A stretch of DNA of 64,000 nt, taken from contig KL647297.1 of the NCBI GenBank assembly GCA_000727475.1, positions 3,365,080 through 3,429,079 on the forward strand, in the 5' to 3' direction. This document shows positions 29,510 through 62,439 of the stretch, piece after piece; position 1 is the first letter of the stretch, and each line of letters begins with the position of its first letter. The DNA is from Sarcocystis neurona. Lineage: Eukaryota; Apicomplexa; Conoidasida; Eucoccidiorida; Sarcocystidae. The translations under genes and the position numbers were made by a program. The notes below the pieces were generated by a model. That model worked only from the letters and a program-made list of their open reading frames with translations. It was not told the origin of the DNA and made no database searches.

Positions 29510-30262
29510 CCAGCTGCCTCAACTAGCCACCGGTGTACACACAAAAATCGAAGCAGCAGCAGTCCACCACTTCTTTTTCGTAATTCTAACGGTGTCGGTG
29601 TACTGCAGCTGCCTCAACTAGCCACCGGTGTACACACAAAAATCGAAGCAGCAGCAGTCCACCACGTTCTTTTTCGTAATTCTAACGGTGTCGGTGTACT
29701 GCAGCTGCCTCAACTAGCCACCGGTGTACACACAAAAATCGAAGCAGCAGCAGTCCACCACTTCTTTTTCGTAATTCTAACGGTGTCCNNNNNNNNNNNN
29801 NNNNNNNNNNNNNNNNNNNNNNNNNNNNNNNNNNNNNNNNNNNNNNNNNNNNNNNNNNNNNNNNNNNNNNNNNNNNNNNNNNNNNNNNNNNNNNNNNNNN
29901 NNNNNNNNNNNNNNNNNNNNNNNNNNNNNNNNNNNNNNNNNNNNNNNNNNNNNNNNNNNNNNNNNNNNNNNNNNNNNNNNNNNNNNNNNNNNNNNNNNNN
30001 NNNNNNNNNNNNNNNNNNNNNNNNNNNNNNNNNNNNNNNNNNNNNNNNNNNNNNNNNNNNNNNNNNNNNNNNNNNNNNNNNAGCTGCCTCAACTTAGCCA
30101 CCGGTGTACACACAAAATCGAAGCAGCAGCAGTCCACCACTTCTTTTTCGTAATTCTAACGGTGTCGGTGTACTGCAGCTGCCTCAACTAGCCACCGGTG
30201 TACACACAAAAATCGAAGCAGCAGCAGTCCACCACTTCTTTTTCGTAATTCTAACGGTGTCC
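29510..30262. repeat. 95-bp tandem repeat array with assembly gap
   Basis: Units starting CAGCTGCCTCAACTAGCC begin at 29511, 29606 and 29702, then again at about 30082 and 30176, so the period is 95-96 bp. Copies are nearly identical. An N run at 29789-30081 (293 bp, close to three units) interrupts it. The period is not a multiple of three, so it does not encode a repeat protein in one frame. Confidence 0.92.
29789..30081. other. Assembly gap (N run)
   Basis: 293 undetermined bases inside the 95-bp tandem array. Confidence 0.99.
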
Positions 30263-35094: not shown

Positions 35095-35280
35095 TCAAGG
35101 GCGGTGGAAACAGCAAACCCTGTGTAGTATCCTTACACCTGGATAATTGTGCTGCACGAAAGGCAGCCGATGCACGTAGGCAGCAACGAGGCATCGGAAG
35201 CGTCTGCTGCGCAGCGCCCGACCGCGTCGTCTAGGGCTCCAGTGAGCCGGAACGGGGAGAGGAATGCTGATCAACAGCGG
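35095..35280 (-). CDS. GCVT: T-protein last exon: LPFVQHNY C-terminus
   Basis: A strong acceptor (CTGCTGGTGTTTCAG) opens [20 protein letters not shown], then a stretch ending [14 protein letters not shown]-proteins typically end G..L.V.VRG+...A.V..LPFVP.NYY, so this is the natural C-terminus. The frame stops at TGA 35097-35095, about 17 residues later. Alternatively the CCAG|GTGTAAGG donor at 35139 is used and a short further exon lies downstream. Confidence 0.75.
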   Translation of the reverse strand, partial: PLLISIPLPVPAHWSPRRRGRALRSRRFRCLVAAYVHRLPFVQHNYPGVRILHRVCCFHRP

Positions 35281-38200
35281 CTGAAACACCAGCAGAAGAG
35301 AAGCACAACAAGCGGCAGCAAGAGCAGCAGCACCAACAACAGCATCAGCACAAGCAACAACAGTAACCGCAGCAGGAGCAACAACAGCGACAGCAGCAAC
35401 TGCATCAACATCAGCAGCAGCAACAGGAGAAGCAGCAGCAGCAAAAGGAGACGCAGCAGCAGCAAAAGGAGACGCAGCAGCAACAGCAGCAGCAGCAGCA
35501 ACGGGGAAAGCAGCAACGGCAAAAGCAGCAGCAGCAACAGCTCCTTGCAGAAAATATATACATATACGATGCTGTATACGTGGATGTGTCTCTACATCTA
35601 AAGACACGTGTATATACATATACACATATATATGTATATATGTATATTGTAATCTAAAGAGACGTGTATGCAGATATGTGTATACTGCAGTACAGCTGCA
35701 AGTCTCTGACGTGCCTGTCCATGCTTGGCGAATTCCCGAAGAACAAGGCCCTGAGCAATTCTGCTGTTGAAGAAGGGACTCCACGTGCAGGACGTGATGC
35801 AGCCAATAGGCCGTCGGTGAGGATTCGAATAGATAATACAGCCCTCATGTGGAAAATAATGATCGGATGCTGCTGCTGTTGCTGCTGCTGCTGTTGTTGC
35901 TGCTGTTGCTGCCGCCCCTCCGGTGCATTCGTCTCTCTCGCTGGACCCTATTCCTCCTCCTGCTGTTCTCCCTGCGCCTGCTGCTGCTGTCGCAGCTGCT
36001 GTTGCTGCTCTTGCTGTTGCTGCTGCCGTTGCTGCTGCCGTTGCTGCCGCTGCTGCGTCTCTTGCATAAGCTTCAGGGCCGGTGCGCCTACGGTGTGGCC
36101 TCACTGCAACAGCAGTCACCTGCTGCATGTACCGGCTGGCACTGCTGCTGCAGTTCACAGCAGAATACCGTCCCCTGCCTCCTCGCATAACTAGGCCAGG
36201 ACCTTTTCCACGTGCGTCCGCTGTCGTTTCTTTGCCTGCTGCTGCTGCTCCAGCTTCTTCTCTTCCTGCTGGCGTCCCTTCTCCTTCTCCCGTTGCCGCT
36301 GCACTTCCTTTTCCTGCGTCGGATGCACCTGCTGCTGCTGTTCCTCCTGTTCCTGCTTCTTCTGGGCCTGCTCTTCTTGCTGCTGCCTCCCGTCCTGCTA
36401 GTACGTTTCGAACTGTGGGAAGGGTTGCCTTGTTATTTAATTCGCCTGCATGTGCTACTGACGCAGGTTCACCGTCGTCTTTTACCACCTCGCAGCCTTC
36501 ACGCCTGCGCTGCTCCTGCTTCCTCTTCGCCACCGCTCTCTGCTGTCGCTGCTCCTGCTCCTGCTGCTGCTCCCTCCGGGGATGCTGCTGCTGTTGCTGC
36601 TGCTGCTGCACCCGCCCTCGTAGCTGCTGCTGCTGCTGCAGCTGCTGCTGGCGCTGCTGCTGCTGCTGTTGCCAGAGTTTGACAGCAGCAAGTCTTTGAC
36701 GAGAGCCCAGGACAATTCCTACGCGCTGCACCTTACTTCCTGCTGCTACATGCCGCTGCACTGCAGCATAAGACAGCAGTAGCCTCCGTCGCACTTTATA
36801 TAGCGACAAGAGACAGCAGAGAGACGCGTGCGCGACCGTGTGCTGCGTCTGTATGTCTACACCCATGATGGGGAGCCCTGCTTCCATTCGAAGCATATTC
36901 AACGCGTGAAGTGTGCCTACAGCAGCAGGAAGACGACCAAGTGAAGAGGCGGGAAGTGAAGAAGAGGAAGAAAAGGAAGAAGGAGAATCAGAAGAAGACG
37001 TGAAGAGCGAAGAGGAAGATGCAGGCGAGGAACAGGAGGATGGGAAGGCAGCAGCTGCCGCGTCAGCGGGAAGGGCGCTAGGCGAGGAGGCAACAGCAAC
37101 AGCAGGTGAAGGAGAGGCGGCAGCTGCAGCGGCAGCTGAAGGAAGGGCAGCAGCAGCGGAACCACGAACGGACGGAGAACCAGCAGCTGCGGCGGCAGCG
37201 GGAAACGAATAGGGCGCAGCAGGAGCAACAGGAGCAGCAGCGGAAGAACACGCTGCAGCAGGAGCCACAGCAGGAGCGGAAGGTGACACTGCAACAGGAG
37301 CAGCAACAGCAGCTGCAGTGGAAGGAGACGCTGCAGCAGGAGTGGCAGCGGCAAAGACGTTTGTCGTCTTCAAGTCCCTTTGGAGCGCGGCGCTTCGCTC
37401 ACGTGGGTTGCCTCCTGTCGAAATGCTGCTGCTACGCATCCGGCTGCTGCTGTACGTGTGGGGTCTGCCGCACGCAGTTGCTGACGGACGTCTACATGAA
37501 AGACTATTAGCTGTTTGACGCAGAACAGAAAGGTCTGCTACGTCCTGCATTTGCTCCTGCTGTTTCTGTTTCTGCTGTCGCTCCTGGTGCGGAGTCCCGT
37601 CGTCTCCTCCTTCGTCGGAGGACTCATGTGCAGAGGAAGAAAAGCGGTCCTTCTGTGTCACTCCCTTCTCGGAAAAACTGCATGCGTTCGTGTCTCCGTC
37701 CACGAGACTGCTGCTGGTGCAAGTAACGCCTTCCCCGTCGCTCAAGCAGCTTCTGCTGCCCCTCCTGCTGCAACTGCTGTCTTGAGTATGGCTACTGATA
37801 CTGCTGTTCATCTTCTTCCTACTGCAGTTGCTGCTGCTCTTCGTGCTGCTGCTCCTGGTGATGCTGTTCCTGCTGCCGCTGTTGCTGTTGTCGCTGCCGC
37901 TGCTGTCGCTACTGCCCCTGCTGTCGCTACTGCTGCTGCTGGTAGTCATGTTGCGGTCGTTGTCGCTGCTGCTGCTCCTGCTGCTGTCACTGCTGCTGCT
38001 GCTTCTTGCTGTGCTGCTGTCACTGCTGCTGCTGCTTGCTGTGCTGCTGTTGCTGTCGCTGCTGCTGGTGCTGTTCGTCACGTTTCTGCTGTTGTCGCTG
38101 CTGCTGACGCTTCTTTTTCTTCCTTCTCCTTCTTTTCTGTGGTAGCTGCAGTTCGACGGAAGGGGACAACATCTGACAGCGTCCTCCTTTGGGTGTCTGG

Positions 38201-41200
38201 GCAGCAGGAGTCTGCAGCAGCACGGCACCACGTTCGCAAGCAAACACCACAGCAGCAGCAGCATCAAGCAACAAGACAAGAAGAACAGCAAGAACAAGGA
38301 GAAGGGCACGAAGACGACGGAAAGACAGACGAAGGCGAAGACGAAGAAGAAGAAGAAATCCCCCTCTTTCCTGGGCAGAGACGCATTAAAAGACACAGAG
38401 CCGCTAGCCGAAGAAGAGGAGAGGAGACCGGCAGAAAGGCCCGGGTCACGAGAAAGAGACAGAGATATACCCCCTTCTTCCGGGCCCTTTTTCTAGAGAT
38501 ATACTCCGTTCTTTCTGGCCCTTCTCTAGAGATCTACTCCGTTCTTCCGGGCCCCTAGGAGTTGCAGCAGGACTTCAAGTAGGAGCAGCAAACTCCTCTG
38601 TTCGCCGTGGGAGTCACAGGAGTCGTCGAGGAGTACGAACACGAGCAGTTGTCCCAGGAGGAGCAGCAGCAGCAACAGGAGGGGCAGGAAGTATGAAGCA
38701 CTCGTCCTTGTCGGTGTCTAGCAGTGTTGTAGTCGTTGTCTTCTAGTAGGAATAGCAAGAGTAGTAGGAGCGCTAGTCCTCCAGCAGCAGCAGTAGTGCT
38801 AGTAAGCTGAGCTCCCTAGAAGTAGTAGTACCTTTCCCAGGAGTGCTAATTGAAGGAAAAGCAGCAGTAGAGGTAATAGTACTCTCCCAGGAGAAGTAAT
38901 ACTACTAGTAGCAGCAGTAGTAAGACGAGAGCAAGAAGCAGTCCCATATACCAGGAGTAGGAGGGGATGAAGTAGTCTCATCTACTCGGAGTTGCTGTTG
39001 TCTACGAGTAGCAGGAAACGTATCAGAAGCAGCAGTAGCAGCAGTCGTAGGAAGCGCGGGAGTCGCACACGCGGGCAGTAGTAGAAGTGGAAGTTGTCTA
39101 CGCCTCGTCATACGAGTCGTAGTAATCGCAGGACCACGAACTCTCTGCGAAAAGCAGGAGTCGTCGTAATACAGAGGAGCCGTCATAATATACTACCATG
39201 CGTTGTAGCAGCAGCAGTGCCACGAGTACTGCAAGTCGTACGAAAAGCAGGAGTACTACAGCAGCAGAGTGTATATATATCTCTACACGAGAAGGTGGAG
39301 GAGGGAAAGCAGGCAGCAACATCGACAGCAGTAGTAGTAGTAGTGAGCAGCAATGATATATAACTGTCTGTATAGGAGAACAAACAGTAGTAGTGCGAGT
39401 CATCGTCGTCGTCGTAGTAGCAGTAGTATTAGTATTAGTACGAGTCGTCTACGAAGATAGATGTACTACATAAGCAGCAGTATATCTGTATGGGAGGAGG
39501 AGAAGCAGTAGTAGGGCGAGCCGCACGAGTAGAAGTACTCGACCAGCAGTGGCATGCGTATAAGAGAAGAAGCAGCACTAATACAAGTCGTAGTGAGGGC
39601 AGTGGTAGCAGCACTACAGGAGCAGCAATGGCATATATGTCTGTGTAGGAGGACAAGGAGTCCTAGTAGTAGCACTACCAGTAGCAGTAGTAGTAGTAGT
39701 AGTACAGGTTGTATACGAGTAGCAGGGGTAGGCGTATTAAAGGGGCAGAATATAAGTCTAGAGGGACAAGGAAAACAAGAAGTAATCTCCTCGTTGCAGC
39801 GGAGAGCATCTGCACCGTCTGGTTGACCGGCTGCCTTCTGCAGCGTGTGGCTGCCCGGCTTCCTGCCTTCTGCAGCATGTGGCTGCCCGGCTGCCTGCCT
39901 TCTGCAGCGTCTGGCTGCCCGGCTGCCTTCTCTTGGCGATAGACGTCTCTCTCTCCGTCTCTCGCTGCCCCTACCCCTTTGCTTACATACGAGTCCATAT
40001 AAAGACGTGACGACTGCAGCAGTTTTGAGAATGGCTGACCACACTTGTCCACAAAAAGGGGAGAAAGTGAATAGAACCTTGCTGTTTATGTCCCACACAT
40101 ACACACACATATAGGTGACTCTCAGCAGAGAATCCTATATTATGTGAAGAAGTAGTAGTAGGGGGACTCTCCTCGAGATGCGTACAGATACACATATATA
40201 TATATATATATTTTTACACGTGTGCTCTTGGGCAGGCAGACCGAGACATTCAGGGATGACGCAGACGCTTCTCTCATATAGAAGAAAAAACTGCGCTACT
40301 CCCACGTATTAACTACACAGGTGGATATATGAGCAAGCATGCACGAAGGCAGGGACACGCCGCGAACAACACAGAAGTCTAGACACAAGTACCCAAAGAG
40401 AAAAGAGAGAAAGGAAAAAAACCACCTGCTGCTCTAAACTTCCTTCTCTCTGCTGCTCTCGCATATATATATATATACATATATATGAATTTGTATGTAA
40501 AGGCACACAAATAGATAGACGCATGCGTGTACGCACACATGCGTACGCCACCCTACATATATACATATTTGTATATAGTCGTGAACGTAATATGTATGCG
40601 AGTGTGTGTGTTGAAGGATTTTTACCGGAGAAATGAAAGAGCAGCAGCAGTTGAGTCGAAGCAAAATTCGACACCGTCCTCTCCCGTCATACCGGCTCGT
40701 ACACAGGGGACAACCCAGCGTCTGCAAGGGGAGGAGCACGAGCAGCAGGAAGGCGCCGGGAATGCGGTGGGATAGCGCACGCTACAGCAGCAGCAGGAGC
40801 AGCCGCAAAAGCAGCAGCACCAGAGGCGCTACGCGTCCCAGAAGCGGACGCCCTCCCAGGAGCACAAGCAGCAGCCGCAACAGCAACAGGAACTGCAGCA
40901 GCTGGACGAGCAGGAACAGCAGCAGCAGAAGCTGTCACAGCAACAAGAGCAGCCACTGCAGCAAAAGGAGCAACAGCAGCAGGAGAAGCAAGAGCAGTCA
41001 CAGCAGCAAGAGCAGCCACTGCAGCACGAGGAGCAAGAACAGCAGGAGCAGCAAGAGCAGTCATTGCAGCAGGAGGAGTAAGAGCAGCAGGCGCAGGAAC
41101 AGCAGCAACACCAGGAGGAGCACCCACAGCTGCAAGAGCAGCAACGACCACTGCACCACAAAAAGGCGCACACGCAAACAGCAGCAGTGGCTACAGCAGC

Positions 41201-44200
41201 AGTCCAAGTGGAACATCCGCAGATGCGCCCAGTAGCAAGGTTCGAGTGTGTGGCAATTAAAGGGCAGCTGCCGCAGTAGCAGGAACAGTAGCTAGGGCAA
41301 AGGAGGATGAGTGCCACAGCCCCAGGAGAAGCCGTTGCGGATGCGTCATCAGCAGAAGCAGCAGAGCAGCAGACGAAGAGCAGCTGCAGAGTCCCCAGCA
41401 GTAGCAGGCGGGACAGCAGCAGACGGAGCAGCAGCAGCAGCAGCAAAAGGAGCAGTAATGTGGATTTCTGTTTCTGGCTGAACTTCCCCACCTTGGCGGC
41501 TGTCGTGCTGCAGCTCCAGCAGAAGGAGAATCAGCAGCAGGAGCAGATACCGTCATTTCGAGTTCAAACGCAGACATGTAGGGCAGGGACAGCAACTGCT
41601 CCGCACGCATTGGCTTTCCCCACGCGCTTCGCAACTGCAACACCACCCTCTCCTTCCTGCCGCTACTGCGACTGTCGATGCTGTCGCCTCTGCTGCTGCT
41701 CTCCTTGCCGTTGTTGCTGTCTTTGCTGCTGCTCCTGCCGCTGCCGTCGCTGCTGTGGCTGCTGTCGCTGCTGCGCCTGCTGCAGCTGCTGTCGTCCCTG
41801 AGTGCCGTCTACAACAGCAGCAGCAACACACAAACCCACCGTTGCTCAAATAGAGGCGGGACTGCATATACAGAAAGGTATGTATGTACGCACCAGCACG
41901 AGCGTAAATATATATCTCCCCACATATACATATGTGTGTACTGGGCGAGCCGCGTGAGAGCCTGCGCTGTGTTTTTGTACCTACACAGGCTAGCCAATAT
42001 CCACCTGACTTCATAGGTGTAACCTAGATACAGGCGGAAGAAAAAATACTCTTTTAAGGAAATAAAAGTCATACAGTCATGCGTCACCTGTAGGAATGCC
42101 TACGTGCATGCGGATGGAAGTGACAGCGTCGACAAAAAAGTGGGCCGCCGAGGCAGAGGCGCACCTGCGCGCAGCGTCACGCCGCGTGCTAATCCGTCAC
42201 AGCGGGAGCAAACAAGTGCAGTGGGTGAGAGCCCCTAGAGCAGCAGCTAGGTAGCGGGAGCAGCAACAAGGCAGCAGGAGCAGGAAGGCAGCAGCGAGAA
42301 GCAGCAAGGCAGCAGACGCAGCAGCAGCAAGTCAGCAGTAGTAGCAGCAAGGGAGCAGCAGCAGCAGCAGCAAAGCAGCAGGAGCAGGAGCAGCACGGCA
42401 GCAGCAGCAGCGGCACGGGAAGAGCAGGAGCAGCAAGGCAGCAGAAGCAGCAGCACGGGAAGAGCAGCAGCAGCAGCAAGGCAGCAGCAGCAGCGAGGCA
42501 GCAGCAGCAGCAGCGAGGCAGCAGCAGCAGCAGCGAGGCAGCAGCAGCAGCAGCGAAGCAGCAGCAGGAAGGCAACAGGAGCAGCAGCGGGATCCTTGGG
42601 AGGCGCGTGCGCGCACCAATGGAAGCCGCAGGTAGTGGTGCGGCGAAGCGGTGCAGCAACGTTCGCGCGCAGCTGCAGCAGTAGTACAAGCGGAGGGAGG
42701 AGGGGCAGCTGCAGTAGCAGCAGAGAATAGCGGGGAGGCGAGAAGCCAGAAAGGTGCAGAGATGGCAAAGTTGAAGGGCAGAAAAAAGACAGTGAACTGT
42801 GGAGAAGATCACAGAAAGTATGAAGAAGAAGAGGAAGAGAAATAGGAGAGGAAGAAGAGGTAGAAGAGAAGGAAGAAGAAGGTAAAAGAATTACCGAGTG
42901 ATCTGAGCTCCTTGTGGTGATAATTCGATGTAGCAGTGTAGGAAGGGAAAGCGGCCCCTGCAGGGAGATGACGCTCGCATGCGGTGGAGCTGCAGAGAGA
43001 TGCACGTCCAGCCCTCCCTGTCTGCAGACGAGCAGCACCAGCAGCAAAGAGAAAGAAGAGCAGCAGCAGTAGCAGCAAAGAGAATGAAGAGCAGCAGCAG
43101 CAAGGAGAAGGACGAGCAGCAGCAGCAGCAAAGAGAAAGAAGACCAGCAGCACTAGTAGTAGGGGAGAGAAGCACGAGCAGCAGCAGCAAAGAGAACGAA
43201 GACCAGCAGCAGCAGCAAAGAGAAGGAAGAGCAGCAGCAGCAGCAAAGAGAAGGAAGAGCAGCAGCAGCAGGTGGAAAGAGAAAGACGAGCAGCAGCAGC
43301 AGCAAGAGCACCGAGGAGAGAGGGGGAGACGAAAGTGCGTCGGAGAAGAATAAGAAGATAAGGAAAAGAGAAACATGACCCCAACAAACGTATTTATATC
43401 TGTCTTCAATATATACATATAACACATATGTCGCGCCACAGCAATATACCCAAGAAATCTCTAACAGCGGCACAAATATGGAGAGAGAAAGTGTCCCAAG
43501 AACTAACAAGAAGATGTCTACATACACACAAATACACATCAACATATTAATACGTATGTGTGTATGCTTTTACGTTCTCATATAGATGTGCATAAATAAA
43601 AACACACATATACGTATATAGAGACAGGGTCACACATACACATCCGTATGTATACACATGCATATGTACATATATATATATATTTGTATGTATATGAAGA
43701 TGCCGGAACTACGTGTCATATGAAATGAACACGACGTGGCTACTGTGGAAAGACGCACAGAGGTTTTACCGGAGGTGGATGGTCCATCCATCAACTGCCC
43801 AGTTATACCTACACACATCTCCATATTCATTTACACACGTTCATTTACATACATATCTATACAGAGAAAGAGAAAGAGCAAAAGAGACACACAGAAAGAA
43901 ACAACGAGTATATATATATGTAGATACAGATATATACATATATGTACAGATAGATATAGATAGAGATACATGAGTTATGTTTGCATGTGTACCAGCATAT
44001 TCTTCATTACATATATATATATATATATATAAATACTATAAAAATATATATATATATATATGTGATGAAGTATAGTGGGCGATACACATACCCCTAGGTA
44101 GATAAATATATAAATATACGTGTGCACATGAATATATATATATACATATATATGTACAGATCACTCTTTCATTCTCTCTATATATAGATACTTATAGATA

Positions 44201-45928
44201 GATGTGTATGTATACGTGATGAAGTAGACGCGGGTATACACATTCGTGGGTAGATAAATACATTAAAATACATGTAAATATATATATATATATATATGTA
44301 TACGGATCTCTCTCTCCCTGCCTATACATATATATATATGTATTAGACATGTTGCCATATGCACATACGAATGCTTAGAAAATTATACGTGTTCCATCCG
44401 TTCACGCACACATACACATATACATCAATTACATACCTATACATTTTATATATATAAGGTATAACACATATATGTATATATAGTTTATGGAGTGCGTGAC
44501 ACGTACCTGCAGTAGTTAAGAAAATGAGAAACATATTCGAAAGTATGTGCAGGGGCAGCACCAGAAGTCCACAGATAAAACGTGTCTCTACATTTTGCTG
44601 CGTAGCAATCTTCTAGGATGAGTCCTCGAGAATCAAGAAGCAGGGCGTACTGCACGTCCCCCACCTACAAAACAAGGGAAAGAAAAAGTTTAGCAGAAGT
44701 AACAGCAGGAACGTCAGCAGCAGGTCCTAGTTGCTATTGGACGAGACAGGAGCAGCTGGTGTGGCACTGGACTGCAACAGCAACAGGAGAAGAAGAAGAG
44801 AGTTGCAGCAGCAGCAGCAGCAAGCGGCCGTGGACGGCAAGCAGGAGAGCAGCAAAAGAAGTGGAGGTTGAGGAGGAGGAGGAGGAGGGGGAAAAGCAGC
44901 CGCACCAGGAGGAGGAGGCAGCAGCCGTCTAGAAAGCAGCAGTGGCATATACATCAACAATAACGGCACGTACGATAAGAGAAGCTGCACCCGCAGCAAT
45001 TGGCAACACCTACCAACAAACAAAAGAGCAGCAGCAGCAGATGCAGCAGTAACACCGGATGGCGGAACAGCAGGGTAATAGTGGCAGCGCGCATTTGATA
45101 AGAGGCAACCACCTTCCACCAACTCACAGCGGCAACAAGAATCGGCAGCAGTGGCGTCCCACCACCAGCAGCAGCAGTCGCAGCAGCAGTAGCGTGCCAC
45201 CAGCCGCAGCAGCAGTAGCAGCAGCAGTGGTGTCCCACCAGCCGCAGCAGCAGCAGCAGCAGTAGTGCCCCACAGCCGCAGCAGCAGGAGCAGCAGCAGC
45301 AGCAACTCATGGGAGTCCTTGTAGCAGCAGTAACGCGAAAGTGAATCATCAGCAGCAACAAGGCCGCCACGTCCGAGTAGCGCAGCAGCAGCAGCAGCAG
45401 AAAAAGAAGAAATGCACTGCGCGGCAGCAGAGGAGAAAGAGGAGCCCGGAACAGCTAGATCCGCGAGGCCCCAGAAATGCGATTGCGAACGTCCGAAGAA
45501 GGAAGCATCACCGCAGCAGCAGGAAAGCCAGAAGATGGGAGGACAGCAGCACAAAAGAAGAAGAGATACAGGAGAACGCCGAAGTCGACGAATGGAGACC
45601 CTGCAACAGAGACAAGATGCATCACATAGTGGATTTGATATGATTTATCGATAGATCTCCTATTTCTCCTTTAACGAACAAAAATGTAAGTCGAGAATGA
45701 ATTTCCGGTGAGACAATTCAAATATTCAATGGCAGAAACAAACACCTAGTCGTACATCCATGTACAGGTACAAGAAACTACTTCTCCCCCTCTCAATCTA
45801 TATACACATACGTATATATACGCGTACATGTACACACTAGAGACTATCTCTTTCTCTCTATACATATGTATATATATATGTATATAAATACACATACATA
45901 TATATGTATGTGTACACACTACAGACTA

Positions 45929-45962
<34 letters not shown>

Positions 45963-48900
45963 CATATATACACATGTATGTGCATACCTATATATACATG
46001 CACGTACATGTATATAGATATGGATAGGCGTACACACAAGAGACCAAAAACACATATATATACCTCTCTCTCTGTGTATATGTATACATATATATATACA
46101 CACATGTATGTATATATATATGAATGCGTGTGGGCATTCTCTCTTTTAATAGAGAGAGAAAAGATTCTAGAAAGTGAAAGCGGACTTTTTCAATATCGAG
46201 TTGTATTTATATAGATATAAATATATATATGTATATGTGTAGATAGGGAGACAAAGAAAGAAAGGAGGTCGACGCTAAGAAATATGGATAAATTATCATA
46301 CAAAAAGAACACATGCAAACCTTTATACACGTAGACACACACTCAAATTCAACAGGCAAGACATATACATATATATATATATATATATACACTCATATAT
46401 TTATATACGCGATTGCAAATTTACATATATATATATATATATTTATACGTATGTGAATATACCTATACATATATGGATACACGTGATTTCTCATTTATAC
46501 ATATATATATATGTATATATTTATCTGTGCCTAAATATCCATATATATATATATATATATACACTTGTATTGTTCACTTACAGATGTATATATACATATA
46601 TGTACATGTATATACAGATATTTATACGTATGCGAATACGGCTATATATATATATATTTGATTTTCCATATATATATATATATTTATCTGTATGTAAACA
46701 TGCACATGTGTGTTTATATATGTACAGATCCGCATATGTACTGTAAGGTGCGCAGTGTTATAATGAGGGAAGACTTTACGTAATAATAGTGAAATTCACA
46801 AGCCCACTTCCATACAAATATATATATATATATGTATATATATATTCATTCATATATATATATATATGAGATTACGTCCGTAGATATATGAGAGACGCCT
46901 TTTGTATAGATATGTGTGTAAATGGCAGGAGAGTCAATAGTCAACATGGCCCTCAAAAGAAGGAAATCGAAGAAGATTTTGCTAGTGGGAGATAAAGACA
47001 GGAACAGAGCTGCGGAGAAGATCAAATAGAAAAGAAATATTAAATTCTTCTAAAAGAATACTTTGAATACACGAGAATTTATAAACACAGAGCGAAGAAT
47101 GAGTGAAACATAGAGAGAGACACACACACACAGAGAGAGAGACAAACGTATGCAGTTATCTTGTTGGTAGTGGACCTGTGTGCCTCTCTCTCTCTCTCTA
47201 TATATATACATGGGAGGACCGGGGTATATACGAGACGGCTTAACAGAAATCCTTCGTAGTAGTAAGTGAGAAAAATTCACAGAGAAAGACACCAAGACAA
47301 AAAGAGTGCGTCGATAAATACAATATATATATATATATATGTATAGACATGAATCTAGTCACTTAATGCTAAACTTATACATATATATTCATAAGTACTA
47401 TTGAATATATGTCTAGACCCGAATCTATTTACTTACTCCTACATATATACATATATATGTGTGTGCATCTACATGCCTACATATAAACATATGTGCGTAT
47501 AGACGTACACCTACTTACTTGTTGTTGACTATATATATATATACAAACAGGGTGTATTTTTATCAATTGTTTAACATAGATATATATATGTATATATGTA
47601 TAAGTGTAAATCTACTCTGACTATATATATATGTACATCTAGGCGTACATTTATCTGCTGTTCAATATATATACATATATATATGTATATGTATATAGAT
47701 GTATACCTACTTATTTATTGTCGAATATATATATATGTACATGTGCACGTGAGTGTACACTCATTTATTCTTGATATATATATATATATATAGGTATAGA
47801 CGTGTGAAAATATATATATATAGGTATAGACGTATGTGTACGTACTTACCGTTGAATATATATGTATATACACACGTATATACATATGTATGCGCTGCTG
47901 AATCTACATACATATATGCATGTATTTACATATGTGAATGAATGTAGATACACGGGAAATCGCATTGTGGGGCCTATCCGCAATATTTGACAGCAGTATA
48001 CTGCTGAAGAGGGGAAGTTTATGTTAAGTATATGAAGACTAAACACTTTGTGGAGAATATAGAAAGTGGCAGGTTTAAGAGAAAGCATAAATGAGAGAGA
48101 AAGACAAAAGTATACAGGTATGTCCATACATGTATATAAATGTACTGAGGAAAAAAACGTATTTTCCTTGCCTTCATCGCCCTCTCCACGTCGCATGTGA
48201 GCAACATGTCCATCACAGAGAGTCGATCTTCCCCAGAAATCTTCCACAGGCGACGAAAGGAAACATCAAAAACAGCGCAGGACTCACGAGCCGCTTTATA
48301 CGCGTGCAGACTTCCCCTGCAAGCCCAAACAGCCCCAGCAGCATCACCCAAAAAAACAAGCAGCAGCAGCATCGGCAGCAGCAGCAGCAAAAAAGCAAGA
48401 CACCCGGTCCTAGCGGTCTCGGCAGCAGAATAGACGCAAACGTAGAAGCAGCAAGAAGAGCAGCAGCAGCCGCAGCAGCAGCAGCATTTCCAGCAACAAG
48501 AGAAAAACAATAGCAGCAGAAAAACCACCAACATCAGAGGTAGCTGCTCCAGGAGAAGCAACAACAGGAGCAGCAGCAACAGCAGGAGCAGGAGTAGGAG
48601 CAGCAGCAGCAACAGCAGCGGGAGCAGGAGCAGCAACAGCAGCAGGAGCAGGAGTAGGAGTAGCAGGAGCAGCAAGAGCAGCAGCAGGAGCAGCAAGAGC
48701 AGCAGCAACAACAGCAGGAGCAGCAACAGCAGGAGCGGCAGTAGCAAGAGCAGCATCCATCGCCACACCAGGTGCAATAGCAGCAGCGGCAACAAAAAAC
48801 AAAAGTCGCGGGTGTCACCTACGGAGAGGCACGCAGAGATGGAGGACCAGATAAAGGGAGAGCACAACAGATCAAAGGAGAGAGAAGCCACAGAGAAAGG

Positions 48901-49514
48901 GAAAGAAAGGAAGAACGAGACGCACGCATGTAGACAAATAGATAGATATATACGTCGAAGGTATAGTCACGTAAAGACTCTCGCGCATATGTGTAGACAA
49001 GCAGCTCCGCATGCAGCCACACACGGGGGCACGAAGGAACAATATAGAGAGGAAAAGGATTTGTGTATTTATTTGAATAGGCCAAGCGGCAGAAAGTGAC
49101 ATTCGTGTAGAGAGTTAATGACAGGAAATAAAATTCCCTTCTTCGGCAACAGAAAGGAGAGAACGATATATGAAGAGCGGAATGCTGGCAAGCAGGCGCA
49201 CACCTGCAAAAGCTACACTCACTTACCTATATAAATGTCCATACATTTATATACAGACACGTGCACATATATAGAAATACACGTACATACAAGTGGATAT
49301 ATATACATACAGGTTTATACAACTATATATACGTATATATACATATATATTGACATGAGCAAAGGGGAAGTATGTATGCATATAGAGAGAGAGAGAGAGT
49401 CACACACCTATGTAGATGTCTATATATAGAGGCAAGTGTACACATATATATATGCACCTACATACAAATGTATATATATCCATACGTTTATACAGACATA
49501 TATATGTATATGTA

Positions 49515-49546
<32 letters not shown>

Positions 49547-52500
49547 CTGAGGTGAACAGAGAGGCATATATGTATGCACGTATGTGTGTATATATATATA
49601 AAGTGAGACTCACACACGTATGTAGACGTCCATGTATTTATATATAGACGTGTGTGCATATATATATATATATATTTACATGAGAAAAAGGTGTACATAT
49701 ATACACATATGTATATAGACATAAGCCGAGACTCACACACGTACATAGATGTCTACGTATTATATATATAGACATGTATACATACACACACATATATATA
49801 TGCACGTATATAGAAGTGTGTGTATATACGTTTATACAAATATGTATACATATATATTAACATATACAAAGAGGTATATTCATATATATATATGAAGTGA
49901 CACACATATGTATGTCGATATGATGCACGTGAACAGTTATATTGTTGCTGTAGCGGTATAAAGGCAGAAGTATAACATCCACCTACACATCTATAAATAT
50001 ATACATATATACATATGGACAGTACACACCAACATTCACATATATATAGATAGAGATAAAGGCACTTACATCAAAGTAGAGATATATGAGGAGAAGAAGA
50101 GCCTTCACCATCGTTTCCTCTATTCATACGTTGGCTTTCTAGTACTTCCCCCTTTTCCTGTCTGTGTGCCTCTGTCTCTCTCCCTCTCTCTCTCCCTGTC
50201 TCCCTCTGTCCTTCCCTGTCCCCCTCCCTGTCCCCCTCCCTGTCTCCCTCTCTGTCTCCCTCCCTGTCTCCCTGTCTCTCTCCCCGTCTCTCTCCCCGTC
50301 TGTCCCTGTCCCCCTCTGTCCTTTCCTGTCCCCTCCTGTCTCTCTCTNNNNNNNNNNNNNNNNNNNNNNNNNNNNNNNNNNNNNNNNNNNNNNNNNNNNN
50401 NNNNNNNNNNNNNNNNNNNNNNNNNNNNNNNNNNNNNNNNNNNNNNNNNNNNNNNNNNNNNNNNNNNNNNNNNNNNNNNNNNNNNNNNNNNNNNNNNNNN
50501 NNNNNNNNNNNNNNNNNNNNNNNNNNNNNNNNNNNNNNNNNNNNNNNNNNNNNNNNNNNNNNNNNNNNNNNNNNNNNNNNNNNNNNNNNNNNNNNNNNNN
50601 NNNNNNNNNNNNNNNNNNNNNNNNNNNNNNNNNNNNNNNNNNNNNNNNNNNNNNNNNNNNNNNNNNNNNNNNNNNNNNNNNNNNNNNNNNNNNNNNNNNN
50701 NNNNNNNNNNNNNNNNNNNNNNNNNNNNNNNNNNNNNNNNNNNNNGTCCCTGTCCCCTCCTCGTCCTTCCTGTCCCCTCCCTCGTCTCTCTCTCTCTCCC
50801 TGTCCCCCTCCCTCGTCTCCCCGTCCTCTCCCCCTCCCCGTCCCCCTCTCTGTCTCCCTCCCTGTCTCCCTGTCTCTCCCTGTTTCTCTTCTCGAGGAAC
50901 TTCCCTTTTCAGAAACGTACCTAAATGTTTGTAGAGGCAGCAGACATTCGTTGAAGTAATCGAAATGAGAGACCCCAAGACTTCTCCAGAAGTTTACAAG
51001 AGATTCGTTTCTCTTTGCTTGACGCATTTGATAAAATATGTCGTCCATCGAATTCATTTGAGTCTCATCATCTACAAACAAATCTTCTTCTTCTCCTTTC
51101 GCTTCTCCAAGTTCCCCTCTTCCTGCTACTCCTTTTCTCTCTTCTTCACCTCGTCTTTCTTTCTCTTTGATCTCCTCTTCTTCTTTATCATCTTCTCTCC
51201 ATCCTTTCTCTTCTTCTTCTTCTCCCCTTTTGTGTGCCTCCTGAATAGCCACAAAAAAGGAACGCCGAGGGACTGCTTGTCCTGCTGCGTCCTCCTCCTG
51301 CTGCTGCTGTGGCTGCTCCTGCTGCTCCTCCTCCCAACGCGCCTCTTGACAACCTTTCGACGCTTCCTTCTCCTCCTCCTTCTCCGTCTCCTGCTGCTGC
51401 TGTCCCTCGCGCTGCTGCTGCTTCTGCTGCTGCTGCAGAGGAAGACGAATGGGAGTCGCTGCGGCTCTAAGTCGCTGCTGCCGCTCCTCTTCTCCCCACA
51501 CAGACCGCGGCTCCCGTCTCCCCTCCTGCTGCACCCGGATCCCGCGTTTTTCTTGCATTTGCTGCTGCTGCTGTCGGATGTGTGGGGCTTTCACTACTCC
51601 TGCAAGGTGCGCTGCTTCTTGATGAAAGAGAAATTCTCGCTGTCTTCTAGCGACCACCGCTGCTGCTTCTGTTGCTGCAGCACCCGCAGAAAAATCCCCT
51701 GCTTCTCCATGGCTGTCGCCCATCTCCTCGTCCTCCTTATCTGCTGCTACTGCAGCTGCTGCTCTCTCTCTCTTTCCCAACAAGTAATCTAGCCTTTCCA
51801 TGCTGCTGTTGCTGCTGTCTTCGTAAGAGGAGAAGCACGTGGAGGAGCCGGAAGCAGCAGCAGCAGCAGAGTCGACGACACCAGGAGCAGGAGCAGAACC
51901 GAAGACACCAGCACCAGCAGCAGCAGCCGCAGAATAAGAAGCAGCAGCAGTAACAGCAAAAGGTGGATGAGGTTTTCCAGGCGAACTCCTCGCAGCAGCA
52001 GCAGCACTGCTGTGGCACGTCTGTCCAGCACGAGAGGCAGCAGGAATATCAGCAGCAGCAGAGAACGAGGAAAGGAACGATGGTGAAAAAGAAGAAGGCG
52101 GTGCGTCTCTTGCTGCTACTCCTCCCACTTCTGCTCCTGTTTGTGCGACTCCTGACCCTGCCGTTGCTATATGTGCTGCTCTTGCTTCCGCTGCTGCTGT
52201 TGTTCCTCCTCCTCCTTGCCGGACTGCTCTTGCTTCGGCTGCTGCTGCTGCCCTTGCTGCTGCCGCCCTTGCTGCTGCTGCTCTTGTGTTTAAATCAGGG
52301 AAATTCTCATTCGTTCGCCTTCGCGAATACAGCTCACAAACAAGTCGATCACGCATGCGAGCATTAGCAGCAGCAACTACCACAGCAGGAGCTGCTGCTG
52401 CTGCTCTTGAATCTGCCGCAGTGGTTTCTGCTGCTGCTGCTGCTGCAAGACGACCAGAATCTGCTGCATCTTCATGTAGACGGTCAGGGGAGGTATCCCT

Positions 52501-55500
52501 TTGACGCTGCTTCTGACTCAGCAGCTCCTGCTGCTGCGTTTCCTGTCGTCTTCTCCAACGAGAAGACTGCCGCCTGAACAGCTGCTGCTCCTGCTCACCG
52601 TCCTGCTGCAGCTGCCCACTGGTGTCTTGCTGTTGCTCCTCCTCCTCCTCCTCCTCCCCCTGCTCCTGATCCTGCTGCTGATGCATCCGCTGCTGCTCCT
52701 TCTCTTTGTTATCCTGTTGCTGCCCCTCGATCTGTTGCTGCTGCTGCTGCACAGTGCATTGCTTCTGTGGACTATTCTGGTGCCGCCTTTGGATTTGTAG
52801 CTGCTGCTGCCGAGGAATGCGTGGCTGCTGCTGCTGCTGCCGCCGCGGCTCTTCGCTGCCGACCCGCTTCTGTTGCTGCAGTTGAAGGCGTTGCTGCTGC
52901 TGCCGCAGCTCACGAAGGGTGCGTTGCTGCAGCGCATGCAGCAGGGGATCCACTTCTGTATCTCTTGCAATTGCTGCAGCATTTGAAGCAGCGGTCGCAG
53001 CGGCAGAAGAGTCACTTACAATGCTTAGCGGGTCTGCTGCTATTGGTGCTGGAGCAGGCAACGTCGCAGCAACAGCAGCAGCGCCAGCGCCCGTGACAGG
53101 GAGAAGAGAAGAGACACCAGCAGGTGCCGGATGAGAAAAGCAAGCAGTGGCAGCAGGAGGACTTCCAGGAGCAGCAACATTGACAGCAGCAGCAGGAGAA
53201 TTCGCAGCAGCAGCGGCAGCTGACTGCACAGCAGAGGGGCACGAAGGAGAAAGGCGAAATTGCACGAGAGGTGAGGACGCAGAAGAAGAGAAAGAATTAA
53301 CGGAAGAAGCAGCAGATGTTGTTGCAGGAAGCATGAGGTGCTTCAACTGCAAAGCAGCAAACGCATGCGGAGGAGGCGCCAGATGTTGCACCTCTTGTTG
53401 GTATCTAAAGAACGTTGCCGCTGCTTCTGTTGCTGCTGCGGCTGCGTCTGCCTCTCCTGCCTCTTCTGCTTCTGCTGCTGCTTCTGCTGCTGCTTCTGCT
53501 GCTGCTTCTTCTGCTGCTGCCACTCCTTCTGCTGTTGCTCCTGCTGCTGCTGCTTCGGGTGCTGCTGGTGCTCCTTCTGCTGCCGCTGTGGAGTCGGCAG
53601 AGAGCGCCCCCACCTCCCCTCCGGCAGCGGCAGCATCAACAGCGCAGCCAGCAGCAACAGCAGCAGCAAGACTCTCCACAGCGCCAGCAAGAGAACTCTC
53701 TCCCACAGCACCCTTGTCAGCAGCAGGGGAATTTTCAGCTACGGTAGACTCCGTCCCAGAAGCAGCGGCAGTAGCATCACCAACGTCTCCACCAGCGAAG
53801 ACAGCTACGGGAGAAGAAAGTGAAGCAGACGGAGCAGCAGCACCCGCAGTTAAGCCGTGCCGGCGACGCAGCCTTCTCTCAGGAGCAGCTGCAACATAAG
53901 CAGCAGCAGGTGCAGTAGAAGGAAGAGCCACCTGGGGGGGGGCAGCAGTAGGCGCAGAGGCAGCAGATGCAGCAGCGGGAATAGCAGCAACAGGAGCAGC
54001 AGTAGCTGGTGTCGGCCCAGGGGCAGCAGGAGCAGAAAGAGCAGCAGCAGGAATAGCAGCAGGATCAGTAGCAGGAGTAGTAGTCGTAGGCGCAAAGGTA
54101 CTAGTAGCAGAGGCAGCAGCGGGGAGTGGCTGTGGTCGGGCGGAGGAGGAAGCAGCAGCAGGAACTGTCACGCGAGGAGGAGCAGCAGGAGGAGGAGGAC
54201 GCGGACGGGAAGAAGAAACAGCAGGGAGGCTTCTGTGCGTAGCAGCAAATTTCCTCTTCATTCGTAGGATAGACACAAGGAGAGCCTCTGCCGGCAGAGT
54301 CTGTTGATGTAGAAAGGCTTCATAGGCAATATTGCTTCCTTCATTTTTTTCGACTGCGTACATCGGCTCTCGCCAGCCGCCTCTGCTGCTGCCGCTGCTG
54401 CAGTCGCCGTAAGAAAACGAGGGGACCGGAGGGGGACGAGCAGCAACAGCTGCAGTAGATTCTCCGACTGCAGCGGCACCTGCATCGGCCATGGTGCGGC
54501 CTTCCACTCTCCTCCGAGAAGGACGCTTCACCCGGGCGGCTGCTGCTGCTGCTGCCACGGCCGCATACGATGGAAGTCTACCAGCTACGTCTGCGCTGCT
54601 CGTTTTGTTGCTGCTGCTCGTGCTGCTGGTGTTAGTGCTGCTGGTGTCGCTGCTGCTGCTAAGAAAGGAAGGACGGCAGCGGGCATTCGTGAGCCGCTGC
54701 ATGCGAAGCTCTTCCTCGCGCTGCTGGCGACGGGCAGCTATTTTACGCGTGACTGGCCCGGAGCCAAAACAGCGTATGCCAGAAGAAGCATAGCAGCAAC
54801 AACAGCAGAGTGTCAAGGAGGAGGAAGAGGAAGAGAAGGAAGAGCAGGAGCAGCAGCAAGGTGAGACGAAGGAAGAGGACGGGTACGACGTGGAGGTGAG
54901 TGAGGAGAAGCAGCAGGAGGAAAAGGAAGAAGAGAGAGAGCAGCTGGACGGGGAGGAGGAGGAGGAGCAGCAGCAAAGGTACGGATAATTACGGAAGTGG
55001 CACTTCGTACATGAGTGCGAACAACGACCTCCTTTCACTCCCTTCCCACGTCGACTGCTGCTGCTGCTGCTCGCCGTTGACTCAGGGCTGCAGCTGCTCT
55101 GCCTGCTATCGCTGCCGCTGTAGGCGCCGCTCCTGCCGTGATTGCTGCTGCAATCACGGCAGCTGCTTGAACGACGGCTGGCGCAGTAGCAGCAGCAGCA
55201 GCGGCTGGTGGCGCCACTACTTCTGGTGAAACTGCCCCTGCAGCAGTGGTTGCTGCCACTGCAGCTCCTGCGGCTGTGGCTGCTGGAGTTGCTGCATACA
55301 AGGGGACCCCCGCTGCCCTGGGGGAAGAGCTTGAGACGGCTGTCTGGACGGGGTGACGGCACCGAGTACTTCCTCAACAACAGCAATGCTGCCTGCAGCA
55401 TTTTTCTCAGGCTTCTTCTCCTCCTGCTACTTCTCCTGCTACAGGTGTCACCGCTGCAACAGGGCGGCGCAGTACGGATGCTGCACCTTCGTGGCAGCTC

Positions 55501-55729
55501 CCAGGCAGCAGCGCATGCAGCTGAAGCAGCACGAGCAGCAGTATCACTTACACGGCAGCTGCAGCAGCGAGCAAAGCAGCAGCAGCAGAAGCAGAACAAC
55601 CCAGAGCCAGTAAAATATGTCACCACGAGTTGGATATGGCGTCACTGCGACATACGGGCAGGGGCGCACGTGCAGTGGCTCTACAGCTGCACAACTCTGT
55701 GAAGGATGTAATTCAGCTTCGTAGACCAT
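35095..55729 (-). CDS. GCVT: Glycine cleavage T-protein-like aminomethyltransferase, giant repeat-expanded gene
   Basis: The T-protein takes the aminomethyl group from the H-protein and passes its methylene to tetrahydrofolate, normally in mitochondria. Ten minus-strand exons were traced by homology and splice phase: 55729-55552, 55291-55050, 54723-50921, 48316-48172, 44664-44507, 42164-42104, 41634-41492, 40721-40626, 38211-35694 and 35280-35095. All phases match and the joined length is a multiple of three, about 2,509 residues. Family segments appear in the usual order: the N-terminal LLPLQ region, [77 protein letters not shown] and [10 protein letters not shown] normal family member has about 370-410 residues, so most of this protein is inserted Ala/Ser/Gln/Glu repeat. 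The first two exons, and so the start ATG at 55729, are the weakest part. An IBA57/YgfZ relative is less likely because the GEDG and EAGLP motifs are those of true T-proteins. Confidence 0.82.
35540..35680. repeat. Short TA microsatellite in the last T-protein intron
   Basis: CATATACACATATATATGTATATA run. The rest of the intron (35281-35540) is CAG-dense. Confidence 0.7.
35694..38211 (-). CDS. GCVT: T-protein exon 9: C-terminal domain with very large Ser/Ala/Gln insertions
   Basis: This 2,518-nt exon follows CTGCTGCAG. It starts [15 protein letters not shown], then runs through a Ser-rich block (37.7-38.1 kb) and an Ala/Pro/Ser block (36.95-37.4 kb). About 430 residues into the exon it returns to family sequence: [20 protein letters not shown], near 36.85-36.92 kb, ending in [12 protein letters not shown] near 36.7 kb. 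A second Gln/Ala insertion of over 250 residues follows. Last comes [20 protein letters not shown] (about 35.8 kb), the family's G.VTSG..SP.....IA strand. The chosen donor is GCAGCT|GTACTG in phase 0. The T-protein C-terminal barrel is thus broken into at least three pieces by repeats, but without a stop or frameshift. Confidence 0.8.
38212..40625. repeat. T-protein intron 8 with AGT-type triplets and minisatellites
   Basis: 2.4 kb intron. 38462-38556 holds three copies of a 35-40-bp unit (GAGATATACTCCGTTCTTCC). 38560-39720 is an imperfect AGT/CGT-triplet tract full of TAG and TAA on the plus strand. 39822-39935 holds three to four copies of a 34-bp GGCTGCCCGGCTGCC.TCTGCAGCGT unit. 40190-40215 and 40460-40490 are TA runs. 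Confidence 0.7.
40626..40721 (-). CDS. GCVT: T-protein exon 8: TGEDGVEF active-loop segment
   Basis: This 96-nt exon between CTTGCAG and CTCCG|GTAAAA reads [19 protein letters not shown], then [12 protein letters not shown]. The TGEDG.E motif is a hallmark of T-proteins and lines the folate pocket. The usual RxGYTGEDG tyrosine is replaced by Met here. The other two frames on this strand contain no family motif. Confidence 0.85.
40727..41480. repeat. CAG/GCAG-rich T-protein intron 7
   Basis: AGGAGCAGCAAGAGCAG-type repeats between exons 7 and 8. On the coding strand this is a CTG/pyrimidine tract leading into the CCCCTTGCAG acceptor. Confidence 0.55.
41492..41634 (-). CDS. GCVT: T-protein exon 7: [11 protein letters not shown] segment
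   Basis: After acceptor GGTGTTGCAG the frame reads [20 protein letters not shown] and then SAFELEMT, equivalent to the family's LRKLPFM...MEV region just before the GEDG loop. An Ala/Pro-rich insertion follows. The donor CCAAG|GTGGGG leaves phase 2, as exon 8 needs. A different donor after ELEMT (GTATCT) would be out of phase. Confidence 0.72.
42104..42164 (-). CDS. GCVT: T-protein exon 6, short linking exon
   Basis: This 61-nt candidate exon lies between acceptor GCGCGCAG and donor GCATGCAC|GTAGGC. Read in the phase left by exon 5, it gives [14 protein letters not shown], which aligns with the family strand preceding the LALQGP turn (xxLxVxDxxxLLALQG). It leaves phase 0, as exon 7 requires. 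It was chosen because it satisfies both phases and the alignment. Confidence 0.6.
42165..43340. repeat. CAG tandem arrays in T-protein intron 5
   Basis: 42290-42590: repeated GGCAGCAGCAGCAGCAGCGA units. 43030-43320: a 27-33-bp unit of AAAGAGAAGGAAGAGCAGCAG. They lie between exons 5 and 6; long frames in them are shadows. Confidence 0.6.
43380..44506. repeat. TA-rich part of T-protein intron 5, with 155-bp duplication
   Basis: TATATA and GATAGATA microsatellites. A 155-bp unit starting GTGATGAAGTA occurs at 44061 and 44216, with the copies diverged. Confidence 0.6.
44507..44664 (-). CDS. GCVT: T-protein exon 5: [11 protein letters not shown] segment
   Basis: A polypyrimidine acceptor (CTTGTTTTGTAG) opens a 158-nt frame reading [20 protein letters not shown] and then [11 protein letters not shown] and [10 protein letters not shown]. 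This matches the family's V.Y.LLLNE.GGI.DD....R....Y.L..N strand-turn region. In the family this segment carries the catalytic aspartate pair; here the pair reads E-D. The exon ends at TGCAG|GTACGT in phase 2. It is not CAG-rich and has normal codon use, so it stands out from the surrounding TA repeats. Confidence 0.82.
44665..48171. repeat. T-protein intron 4: CAG block then long TA block
   Basis: 44.7-45.6 kb is CAG/GCAG-rich and open on both strands. A plus frame ending [20 protein letters not shown] at 45.64 kb looks protein-like but has no other support. 45.78-46.87 kb and 47.15-47.96 kb are TA microsatellite with recurring GTATAGACGT.C.CCTACTTA units. Confidence 0.55.
48172..48316 (-). 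CDS. GCVT: T-protein exon 4: ESCAVFDVS folate-domain segment
   Basis: The acceptor GGGCTTGCAG opens a frame reading [19 protein letters not shown], then a [19 protein letters not shown] segment. This corresponds to the family's EH..R...GLFDVSHMG..+.G.DA..FL..L.TNDV. The best in-phase 3' end is ATGAAG|GCAAGG, a GC donor, because it joins exon 5 without a gap in the alignment ([17 protein letters not shown]). A GT lies a few bases further on (AATAC|GTTTTT), but it puts exon 5 out of frame. Upstream is a pyrimidine/CTG-rich stretch that reads as polyleucine and is intronic. Confidence 0.8.
48317..50347. repeat. T-protein intron 3, proximal part
   Basis: 48.34-48.80 kb is AGCAGCAGCAACAGCAGGAGC-type repeat. 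49.23-50.07 kb is a diverged tandem repeat of about 150-180 bp with CACACACGTATGTAGACGTC and TATATA. 50.16-50.34 kb is CTCCCTGTC pyrimidine satellite running into the gap. An AG|GTAAGTGAG donor-like site near 49231 (minus) has no exon before it. Confidence 0.6.
50348..50745. other. Assembly gap (N run)
   Basis: 398 undetermined bases inside a CTCCCTGTC satellite, within T-protein intron 3. Sequence on both sides (50160-50347 and 50746-50890) is the same satellite. Confidence 0.99.
50921..54723 (-). CDS. GCVT: Exon 3 of the T-protein gene: low-complexity N-terminal extension plus first T-protein helix
   Basis: This is an open stretch of 3,803 nt. It holds Ser-rich, then Ala/Pro-rich (about 53.2-54.2 kb), then Gln-rich (52.5-52.9 kb), Ala-rich and Glu/Lys/Gln-rich segments (51.1-51.5 kb). 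Only the last 40 or so residues resemble the enzyme: [19 protein letters not shown] followed by [10 protein letters not shown], matching the family start where an LG and a PxQ precede the AR..GLFDVS motif. The exon ends at a TTTAG|GTACGT donor at 50921 and splices in phase to 48316, giving [15 protein letters not shown]. The frame stays open beyond 50921 into a GA-rich repeat and an assembly gap, but that part is intron. The acceptor at 54723/54724 was picked because it keeps phase with the upstream exon; nearby alternatives exist. Confidence 0.75.
55050..55291 (-). CDS. GCVT: Candidate second exon of the T-protein gene, alanine-rich
   Basis: The acceptor CCTTGTATGCAG opens an Ala/Val/Pro-rich frame of 80 codons. 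A donor GAC|GTGGGA leaves phase 0, which fits the exon 3 start at 54723. Composition is the only other support. Confidence 0.4.
55552..55729 (-). CDS. GCVT: Candidate first exon of the T-protein gene
   Basis: An ATG in a CCATGG context opens a 178-nt frame ([14 protein letters not shown]..) that ends at a textbook CCGT|GTAAGT donor. It contains a short leucine-rich hydrophobic stretch, which might act as a targeting or anchor segment. Its phase matches the acceptor at 55291. There is no homology to confirm that it belongs to the same transcript. Confidence 0.4.
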
Positions 55730-57040: not shown

Positions 57041-57640
57041 GGTGTACGTACACCCCACGAAGAGACTCGTGGACACCCGCTGGAGCCGCTTCCGTTACAC
57101 ATATATTGGCCTCCACTGGAGTCCCGCATAGCGGTGACATCGTAATCTTCCTCTATATTCTCTTAAGAAAACCCTCTTTCGTACCGTTCGTCAATTTTCT
57201 AGTGCAGACAAATACACTCTCTGAGGTGTACGTACACCCCACGAAAACGACTCGTGGACGCCCGCTGAAGTCGCTTCCTCTACACACAGCTCCGCCTCGG
57301 CCGTAGTCCCGCATACAGGTAACATCGGATTCTTTTTTATATTCTCTCGAGAAGACGCTCTTCAGGACCGTTCGTCAACTTTATCGTACAGACAAATGCA
57401 CTTTTCGATTCCCGCCTGGATCGTCCGCCGAGGTCTATGAGGCAGGCGGGTGTCTCCCCCAGCTACACGAGCCGGCTGGTGTACGTCCACTACCACTTCG
57501 TGTCACCAACGTGCTGGCGGGTGCTTTTCCACACACACACATCTCCCTACTACAGAGCCGAGCATGCCGGTAAGATTTCCACGCATTTTTTCCTTTGTGC
57601 TTACCAATATAAGTGACATACACGTAGGCAAGCACGTCCG
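57041..57640. repeat. 184-bp diverged tandem repeat
   Basis: Two clear copies start with the 12-bp palindrome GTGTACGTACAC at 57042 and 57226, followed by CCCACGAA.A.GACTCGTGGAC. A third, more diverged copy begins near 57477. Shared blocks include CCCGCATA..GGTGACATCG.A and ACCGTTCGTCAA.TTT. Confidence 0.8.
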
Positions 57641-62392: not shown

Positions 62393-62439
62393 GTAATCTT
62401 CGACTCTCCAAATTTCTTCTTCTCTGTATTTCATGGCTC

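Follow-up and report, generated by a model that had tools for sequence, protein, structure and literature searches.

The DNA analysed here is a window of 64,000 nucleotides (G000:C10:3365080-3429079) in an assembly of 74 contigs and 123 Mb. It holds a single minus-strand gene, running from 55401 to 35095, for a protein of the T-protein (GcvT, aminomethyltransferase) family of the glycine cleavage system. The aminomethyltransferase segments follow one another in order along the minus strand from 51.1 to 35.1 kb, and the gene can be rebuilt from eight exons with consistent phases and without an internal stop (Table 1). The coding sequence of 6.9-8.0 kb contains neither a stop nor a frameshift. 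Five introns are of the GT-AG type and two are of the GC-AG type, GC donors being apparently used at 48171 and 35714. Depending on whether exon 7 begins at the acceptor 37077, 38145 or 38196, the protein comes to 2,290, 2,646 or 2,663 residues. The original prediction, of about 2,500 residues, joined ten exons in phase; the consistent phase is borne out, but eight exons suffice. The stop codon at 35095 had been placed exactly, whereas the start had not. The ATG at 55729 belongs to a frame that runs into a stop, and a 5' exon beginning there was rejected. Exon 1 lies in an open frame of 1,493 codons, over which each of the five alternative frames meets 22-41 stops; the first ATG of the open frame, at 55401, is the presumed start codon. 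Because this in-frame ATG opens the long exon 1, a separate 5' exon is unnecessary. The LQGP exon was located by homology to relatives; the tblastn results with relatives P0010-P0012, like that with P0014, are those among the matches listed. In exon 5, the openness of the frame through the Ser-rich insert is not significant against Markov sequences, and its assignment rests on phase and on relatives. The Ala repeat at 35544-35281 was tried as coding sequence and rejected: the adjacent upstream AG, the sole alternative tried, does not match the phase of the donor 35714, and conserved sequence resumes at the TTTCAG acceptor 35280.

Table 1. Features of the T-protein gene in the window, in order of transcription except for the last two rows.
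Feature	Position	Strand	Basis
Exon 1: N-terminal extension (about 1,450 residues, Ser-/Ala-/Gln-/Glu-rich stretches and conserved blocks) and first T-protein core residues	50921..55401	-	Open frame, donor TTTAG|GTACGT, blocks common to relatives; presumed start
Exon 2	48172..48316	-	GC-type donor AAG|GCAAGG; GCV_T match on open reading frame (ORF)
Exon 3: catalytic-Asp position (second acidic residue of LDD/LED motif)	44507..44664	-	Alignment and phase
Exon 4: LQGP segment	42895..43021	-	tblastn with relative P0014 (among the matches listed) and phase check
Exon 5: Ser-rich insert (insert site 1), then conserved segment	41492..41808	-	Homology and phase
Exon 6: GEDG loop	40626..40721	-	Homology and phase
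Exon 7, probable 5' part: Ser-/Gln-/Ala-rich insert site 2, about 356-373 further residues	37078..38196	-	Phase-compatible acceptors 38145/38196, open frame
Exon 7, minimal: EAGLP, C-terminal-barrel Gln/Ala/Glu-rich insert (site 3, about 36677-35868), SNPHRRPIG	35715..37077	-	GC-type donor CAG|GCACGT; GCV_T_C match on ORF
Exon 8: final conserved segments to stop	35095..35280	-	Homology and phase
Ala-coding GCT repeat in intron 7, judged non-coding	35281..35544	-	Upstream AG out of phase; acceptor 35280
N run within intron 1	50348..50745	.	Assembly gap

The conserved pieces, typed together with neither the inserts nor the LQGP exon, score above the Pfam cut-offs of both GCV_T (92.4 bits, cut-off 25.6) and GCV_T_C (28.2 bits, cut-off 25.9), in agreement with the GcvT identity first proposed from ordered T-protein segments on the minus strand. 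Single exons come just under these cut-offs, with 22.8 bits (6.3e-5) for GCV_T on the exon 2 ORF and 25.7 bits (1.0e-5) for GCV_T_C on the exon 7 ORF. In the alignment, the catalytic Asp of the LDD motif, GEDG and LR(M/L)EAG are all present in the window protein. When the compact core is searched against the genome, nine of its ten matches fall in the window, ordered and on one strand; the tenth lies elsewhere with E=0.06, and no second T-protein copy was found in the 123-Mb assembly with this query. A second canonical T-protein gene was also sought with a bird AMT query (E<=10) and with PF01571 (E<=0.001), which matched nowhere. Because PF01571 missed the window's own exons as well, only the core query counts against a second copy. 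A role as a subunit of the mitoribosome or of a respiratory complex was considered and rejected: at E<=0.001 the sole chains of the Protein Data Bank (PDB) matched by the proteins of T. gondii and P. berghei are aminomethyltransferase-type or related GcvT-domain chains, and a literature search returned no paper. Subunit chains of RNase P/MRP and telomerase are absent among the PDB sequence matches of the T-protein queries; these chains are presumably POP1, an RNA-binding subunit, the titles giving only the complexes.

Three protein searches (lengths of about 216-4,028 residues, E<=1e-5) returned 9, 22 and 5 matches, the first having scored only the 7,994 candidates that share most words. The longest relatives found are P0010 of T. 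gondii (1,800 residues) and P0011 of Besnoitia (1,772 residues), both named glycine cleavage T-protein domain proteins. Both have an N-terminal extension of roughly 1,100 residues, and their cores are interrupted by inserts at the three sites used in the window protein, so that the view of this gene alone as enlarged is not supported. Cyclospora and two Eimeria have smaller versions of this extended, insert-bearing architecture; in Plasmodium and Cardiosporidium the extension is present and the first site (QGP-PYMS) is enlarged, but the other two inserts are lacking. Core identity to the window protein is 0.59 for T. gondii (433 columns), 0.58 for Besnoitia, 0.42 and 0.40 for two Eimeria, 0.36 for Cardiosporidium and 0.34 and 0.32 for two Plasmodium. 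In a gene tree of 13 chosen rows and 435 columns, in which row P0001 is poorly aligned upstream, the window groups with Toxoplasma, Besnoitia and two further coccidian contigs, apart from Eimeria, with a support of 99. The earlier hint at Eimeria is thus not supported, and the gene is placed on the Toxoplasma side. Because the annotations of Toxoplasma, Besnoitia, Eimeria, Cardiosporidium and Plasmodium hold the T-protein segments within one protein each, separate transcripts are unlikely.

The N-terminal extension contains the conserved blocks GPVTRK, RGGW..P...V.K and HAF....K.L (54.8-51.6 kb of the window), which are common to the coccidian relatives; among the relatives compared (P0010-P0018), the RGGW block occurs in Plasmodium too. 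Structure models of relatives predict helices in the extension with pLDDT values of about 80-90, and no Pfam match at E<=1 was obtained in the N-terminal part of the proteins scanned.

The reading as one long gene, with low-complexity sequence inserted into each half of the enzyme, is supported. The reading frame stays open throughout the C-terminal-barrel insert (36677-35868); the two remaining minus frames hold 9 and 5 stops, and the same span is open in 0, 7 and 8 of 1,000 Markov sequences of orders 1, 2 and 3, respectively. In the short model of the protein there are 24 single-residue runs of at least five residues (A 11, Q 6, S 4, E 2, C 1), the longest being eight, and most low-complexity tracts are degenerate. 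The large repeat content and the assembly gap in intron 1 could suggest a decaying, repeat-stuffed pseudogene. However, the long coding sequence is uninterrupted and its splice phases are consistent, the core retains 59% identity to T. gondii, and no second copy was found. Decay of the locus is therefore extremely improbable.

The insert preceding EAGLP comprises about 52 residues if exon 7 starts at 37077, or about 408-425 if it starts at 38145 or 38196. The distance from GEDG to LRMEAG is accordingly 81 residues in the short model and 437 or 454 in the long ones, so that the more than 430 residues first claimed between GEDG and EAGLP hold for the long form but not for the short. The interval 38144-37079 is open in the frame of exon 7, while the other five frames carry 7, 12, 7, 5 and 3 stops, and it is open in 0, 0 and 1 of 1,000 Markov sequences of orders 1, 2 and 3. 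A three-periodic coding score turns positive near 38190, the site of the acceptors 38145/38196. The long form is favoured by the in-phase acceptors and by the open frame, and we prefer it to the short form with considerable, though not full, confidence. If the insert were instead mostly intron, exon 7 would start at 37077, the protein would have 2,290 residues and the site would resemble that of Toxoplasma. The acceptor 37077 (GCCTCCTCGCCTAG) is in phase, the short form comes close to T. gondii (81 against 79 residues from GEDG to LRMEAG) and the coding score is ambiguous upstream of 37077. Against this, the 356 codons upstream form the sole open frame of six, with the Markov counts just given, and the frame of relative P0001 likewise stays open over about 100 residues ahead of that point, which leaves the intron as an unlikely choice. 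The openness of the 52-codon stretch 37076-36921 is not significant against Markov sequences, and its place in the protein rests on phase and on relatives. Results of the coding tests that tell against a translated long insert are these: the score fails to separate the minus frames in about 38190-37750, plus-strand frames outscore the exon-7 frame in about 37440-36920, and the score lies below zero on the certain EAGLP segment, which makes it a weak indicator; nor could exonic and intronic repeats be told apart by codon-position entropies, a coding test that was not decisive.

The second acidic residue of the LDD motif is presumably the catalytic Asp of the T-protein. The title of PDB 3a8k (D97N complex) points the same way, and a search of the literature on this residue found none. 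The Asp is kept in the window protein and in all 18 other rows covering the site, and is replaced by Thr or Ile in nine of nine Plasmodium and Hepatocystis rows (P0015-P0022, P0024); of the 32 proteins obtained, the alignment takes in 29 and leaves out P0023, P0026 and P0032. Judged from this replacement, the haemosporidian protein may not be a normal aminomethyltransferase. Among the partners of the T-protein, an H-protein is present in the genome (GCV_H at C21:481230-481469, E 1.2e-12; 1.1e-16 on L001 (1-2118)), and its open frame seems to carry Ala-rich segments inside the lipoyl domain. SHMT was found as six exon matches, without a repeat insert among the matches listed. The P-protein was not matched at E<=10 in an exon-wise genome search with PF02347 and TIGR00461, models that are positive in 11 and 10 of 14 control genomes, respectively. 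This agrees with Plasmodium, for which a review (PMC3426790) reports T, H and L and the absence of P.

These observations bear on the idea that the protein is no longer a glycine-cleavage enzyme and that its fold and helical module would serve as a scaffold or in one-carbon transfer with the H-protein only. The failure to match the P-protein with two models while SHMT and the H-protein were found, the Plasmodium set of T, H and L without P in that review (PMC3426790), the N-terminal block common to the window and Plasmodium, and the replaced Asp of the haemosporidian rows would all fit it. However, the Asp is kept in the window and in every other row covering the site. Moreover, the missing P-protein is weak evidence, because the exon-wise search with PF01571 (E<=0.001) missed the T-protein gene itself. 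We regard a loss of the enzymatic role as rather improbable for this gene. A wider conjecture, about as doubtful, is that in apicomplexans with T and H but without P the T-protein has been repurposed, with a helical module absent from the compact T-proteins compared, and that coccidian core loops would act as platforms for translated repeats, here of more than 400 residues in the folate domain. The observations sharpen the question of what role H- and T-proteins have where the P-protein is missing.

It is likely that the window gene, with eight exons, translated repeats and looped-out inserts, comes from a coccidian on the Toxoplasma side of the group and is orthologous to the aminomethyltransferase of other apicomplexans. 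The gene is real and probably functional, an extreme member of a known coccidian form of the T-protein. An ancestor would already have had a long N-terminal extension and three permissive core loops. Period-3 repeats of the CAG/AGC/GCA type, which keep the frame on growth because of their period, would then have grown in the extension and in two loops, one from the GEDG loop to EAGLP and the other from the RVG strand to SNPHRRPIG. The transcript would be spliced from eight exons and each insert translated, and the compact enzyme would reach its normal fold, the inserts forming disordered or helical loops outside it. The protein would be located in the mitochondrion and carry out aminomethyl transfer to tetrahydrofolate using lipoylated H-protein. 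This explanation is carried by homology and phase, by the open frames, by the insert sites of relatives and by a structure model of the E. stiedai relative, which predicts a complete human T-protein fold with the inserts between its elements.

Several results weigh on the other side. That model is of the E. stiedai relative and not of the window protein, translation of the inserts is predicted from genomic DNA, and the P-protein went unmatched in the search described above. In addition, the compact query falls below the naming cut-offs of NCBIfam models built for prokaryotes (79.2 against 235.85 bits for TIGR00528; 107.7 against 459 for NF010093), and the protein is therefore filed as a GcvT-family relative rather than a proven bacterial equivalog.

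Further features of the window concern repeats. An ORF at 61750-62487 on the plus strand matches soluble inorganic pyrophosphatase, with segments 81 residues apart against 7 in PDB 5wrt and a low-complexity insert. The whole match has an E of 2e-12, the first segment alone is weak (13.8 bits), and no Pfam match was obtained at E<=0.01. Because both the H-protein and this neighbouring pyrophosphatase also seem to carry repeat inserts, the inserts look like a habit of the genome. CT-rich stretches at 10157-11179 and 50172-50889 read as Ser/Pro/Leu-rich ORFs; the latter is a TCTCCC-type tandem repeat bordering the N gap of intron 1 (50348-50745). The window also has two tandem duplications, one of 95 bp (30082-30261, beside the N gap 29789-30081) and one of 184 bp (57041-57402).

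The human T-protein (PDB 1wsr) shares with the window protein the GcvT fold (predicted for the latter), the GEDG and LR-EAG motifs and the position of the catalytic Asp, but has 375 residues with neither extension nor inserts. CAG-type repeats coding for Ala, Gln and Ser, of the class seen in the window gene, are given for 30% of E. falciformis and 57% of E. tenella genes in a genome paper (PMC4287421), which states for Eimeria that they are not found within functional domains. If its inserts are translated, the window gene is an apparent exception to that statement in a related genome, as its repeats seem to lie inside a functional domain. Its runs are short (longest 8, short model). The putative Plasmodium aminomethyltransferases (812-858 residues) have a related core and the RGGW block; both rows measured have an enlarged first site (62-86 against 97 residues) but no insert at the last two (37 and 23-24 residues), and the presumed catalytic Asp is replaced by Thr or Ile.

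The closest likeness is to Toxoplasma P0010 and Besnoitia P0011, in extension blocks, three insert sites and C-terminal segment. From QGP to PYMS, the window protein has 97 residues and is not longer than these relatives (T. gondii 94, Besnoitia 112); Cardiosporidium has 113, Cyclospora 87, P. berghei 86, P. vivax 62, Chromera 57, two Eimeria 52, three presumed dinoflagellates 40-47 and the bird and two compact presumed bacterial proteins 19-20. From GEDG to LRMEAG, its 437-454 (or 81) residues compare with 79 in T. gondii, 69 in Besnoitia, 57 in Cyclospora, 54-59 in Eimeria, 49 in Chromera, 39-40 in the presumed dinoflagellates, 37 in Cardiosporidium and Plasmodium and 36-37 in the bird and compact proteins. 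From RVG to PIG, recomputed as RVG-RPIG for seven rows (PIG-LPFV being unused for T. gondii, Cyclospora and the bird), it has about 305 residues against 147 in T. gondii and 152 in Besnoitia; two further coccidian contigs have 188 and 194, Eimeria 86-97, Cyclospora 62, and Plasmodium, Cardiosporidium, Chromera, the presumed dinoflagellates, the bird and P0007 23-24. The FDVS-type motif is preceded by 1,509 residues, against 1,173 in T. gondii and 1,135 in Besnoitia, with 693 in Chromera, 516-643 in Eimeria, 550 in Cyclospora, 463 in Cardiosporidium, about 410 in Plasmodium, 55-262 in the presumed dinoflagellates and 48-52 in the bird and compact proteins. Because relatives have the extension and the three sites, both are taken to be old, and two of the sites and the extension would have grown further in this genome. 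If its inserts are translated, the window protein exceeds in length every relative returned by the three protein searches (longest match 1,800 residues), and Plasmodium, Eimeria, Toxoplasma and this genome form a graded series of repeat growth at fixed loops of a compact enzyme.
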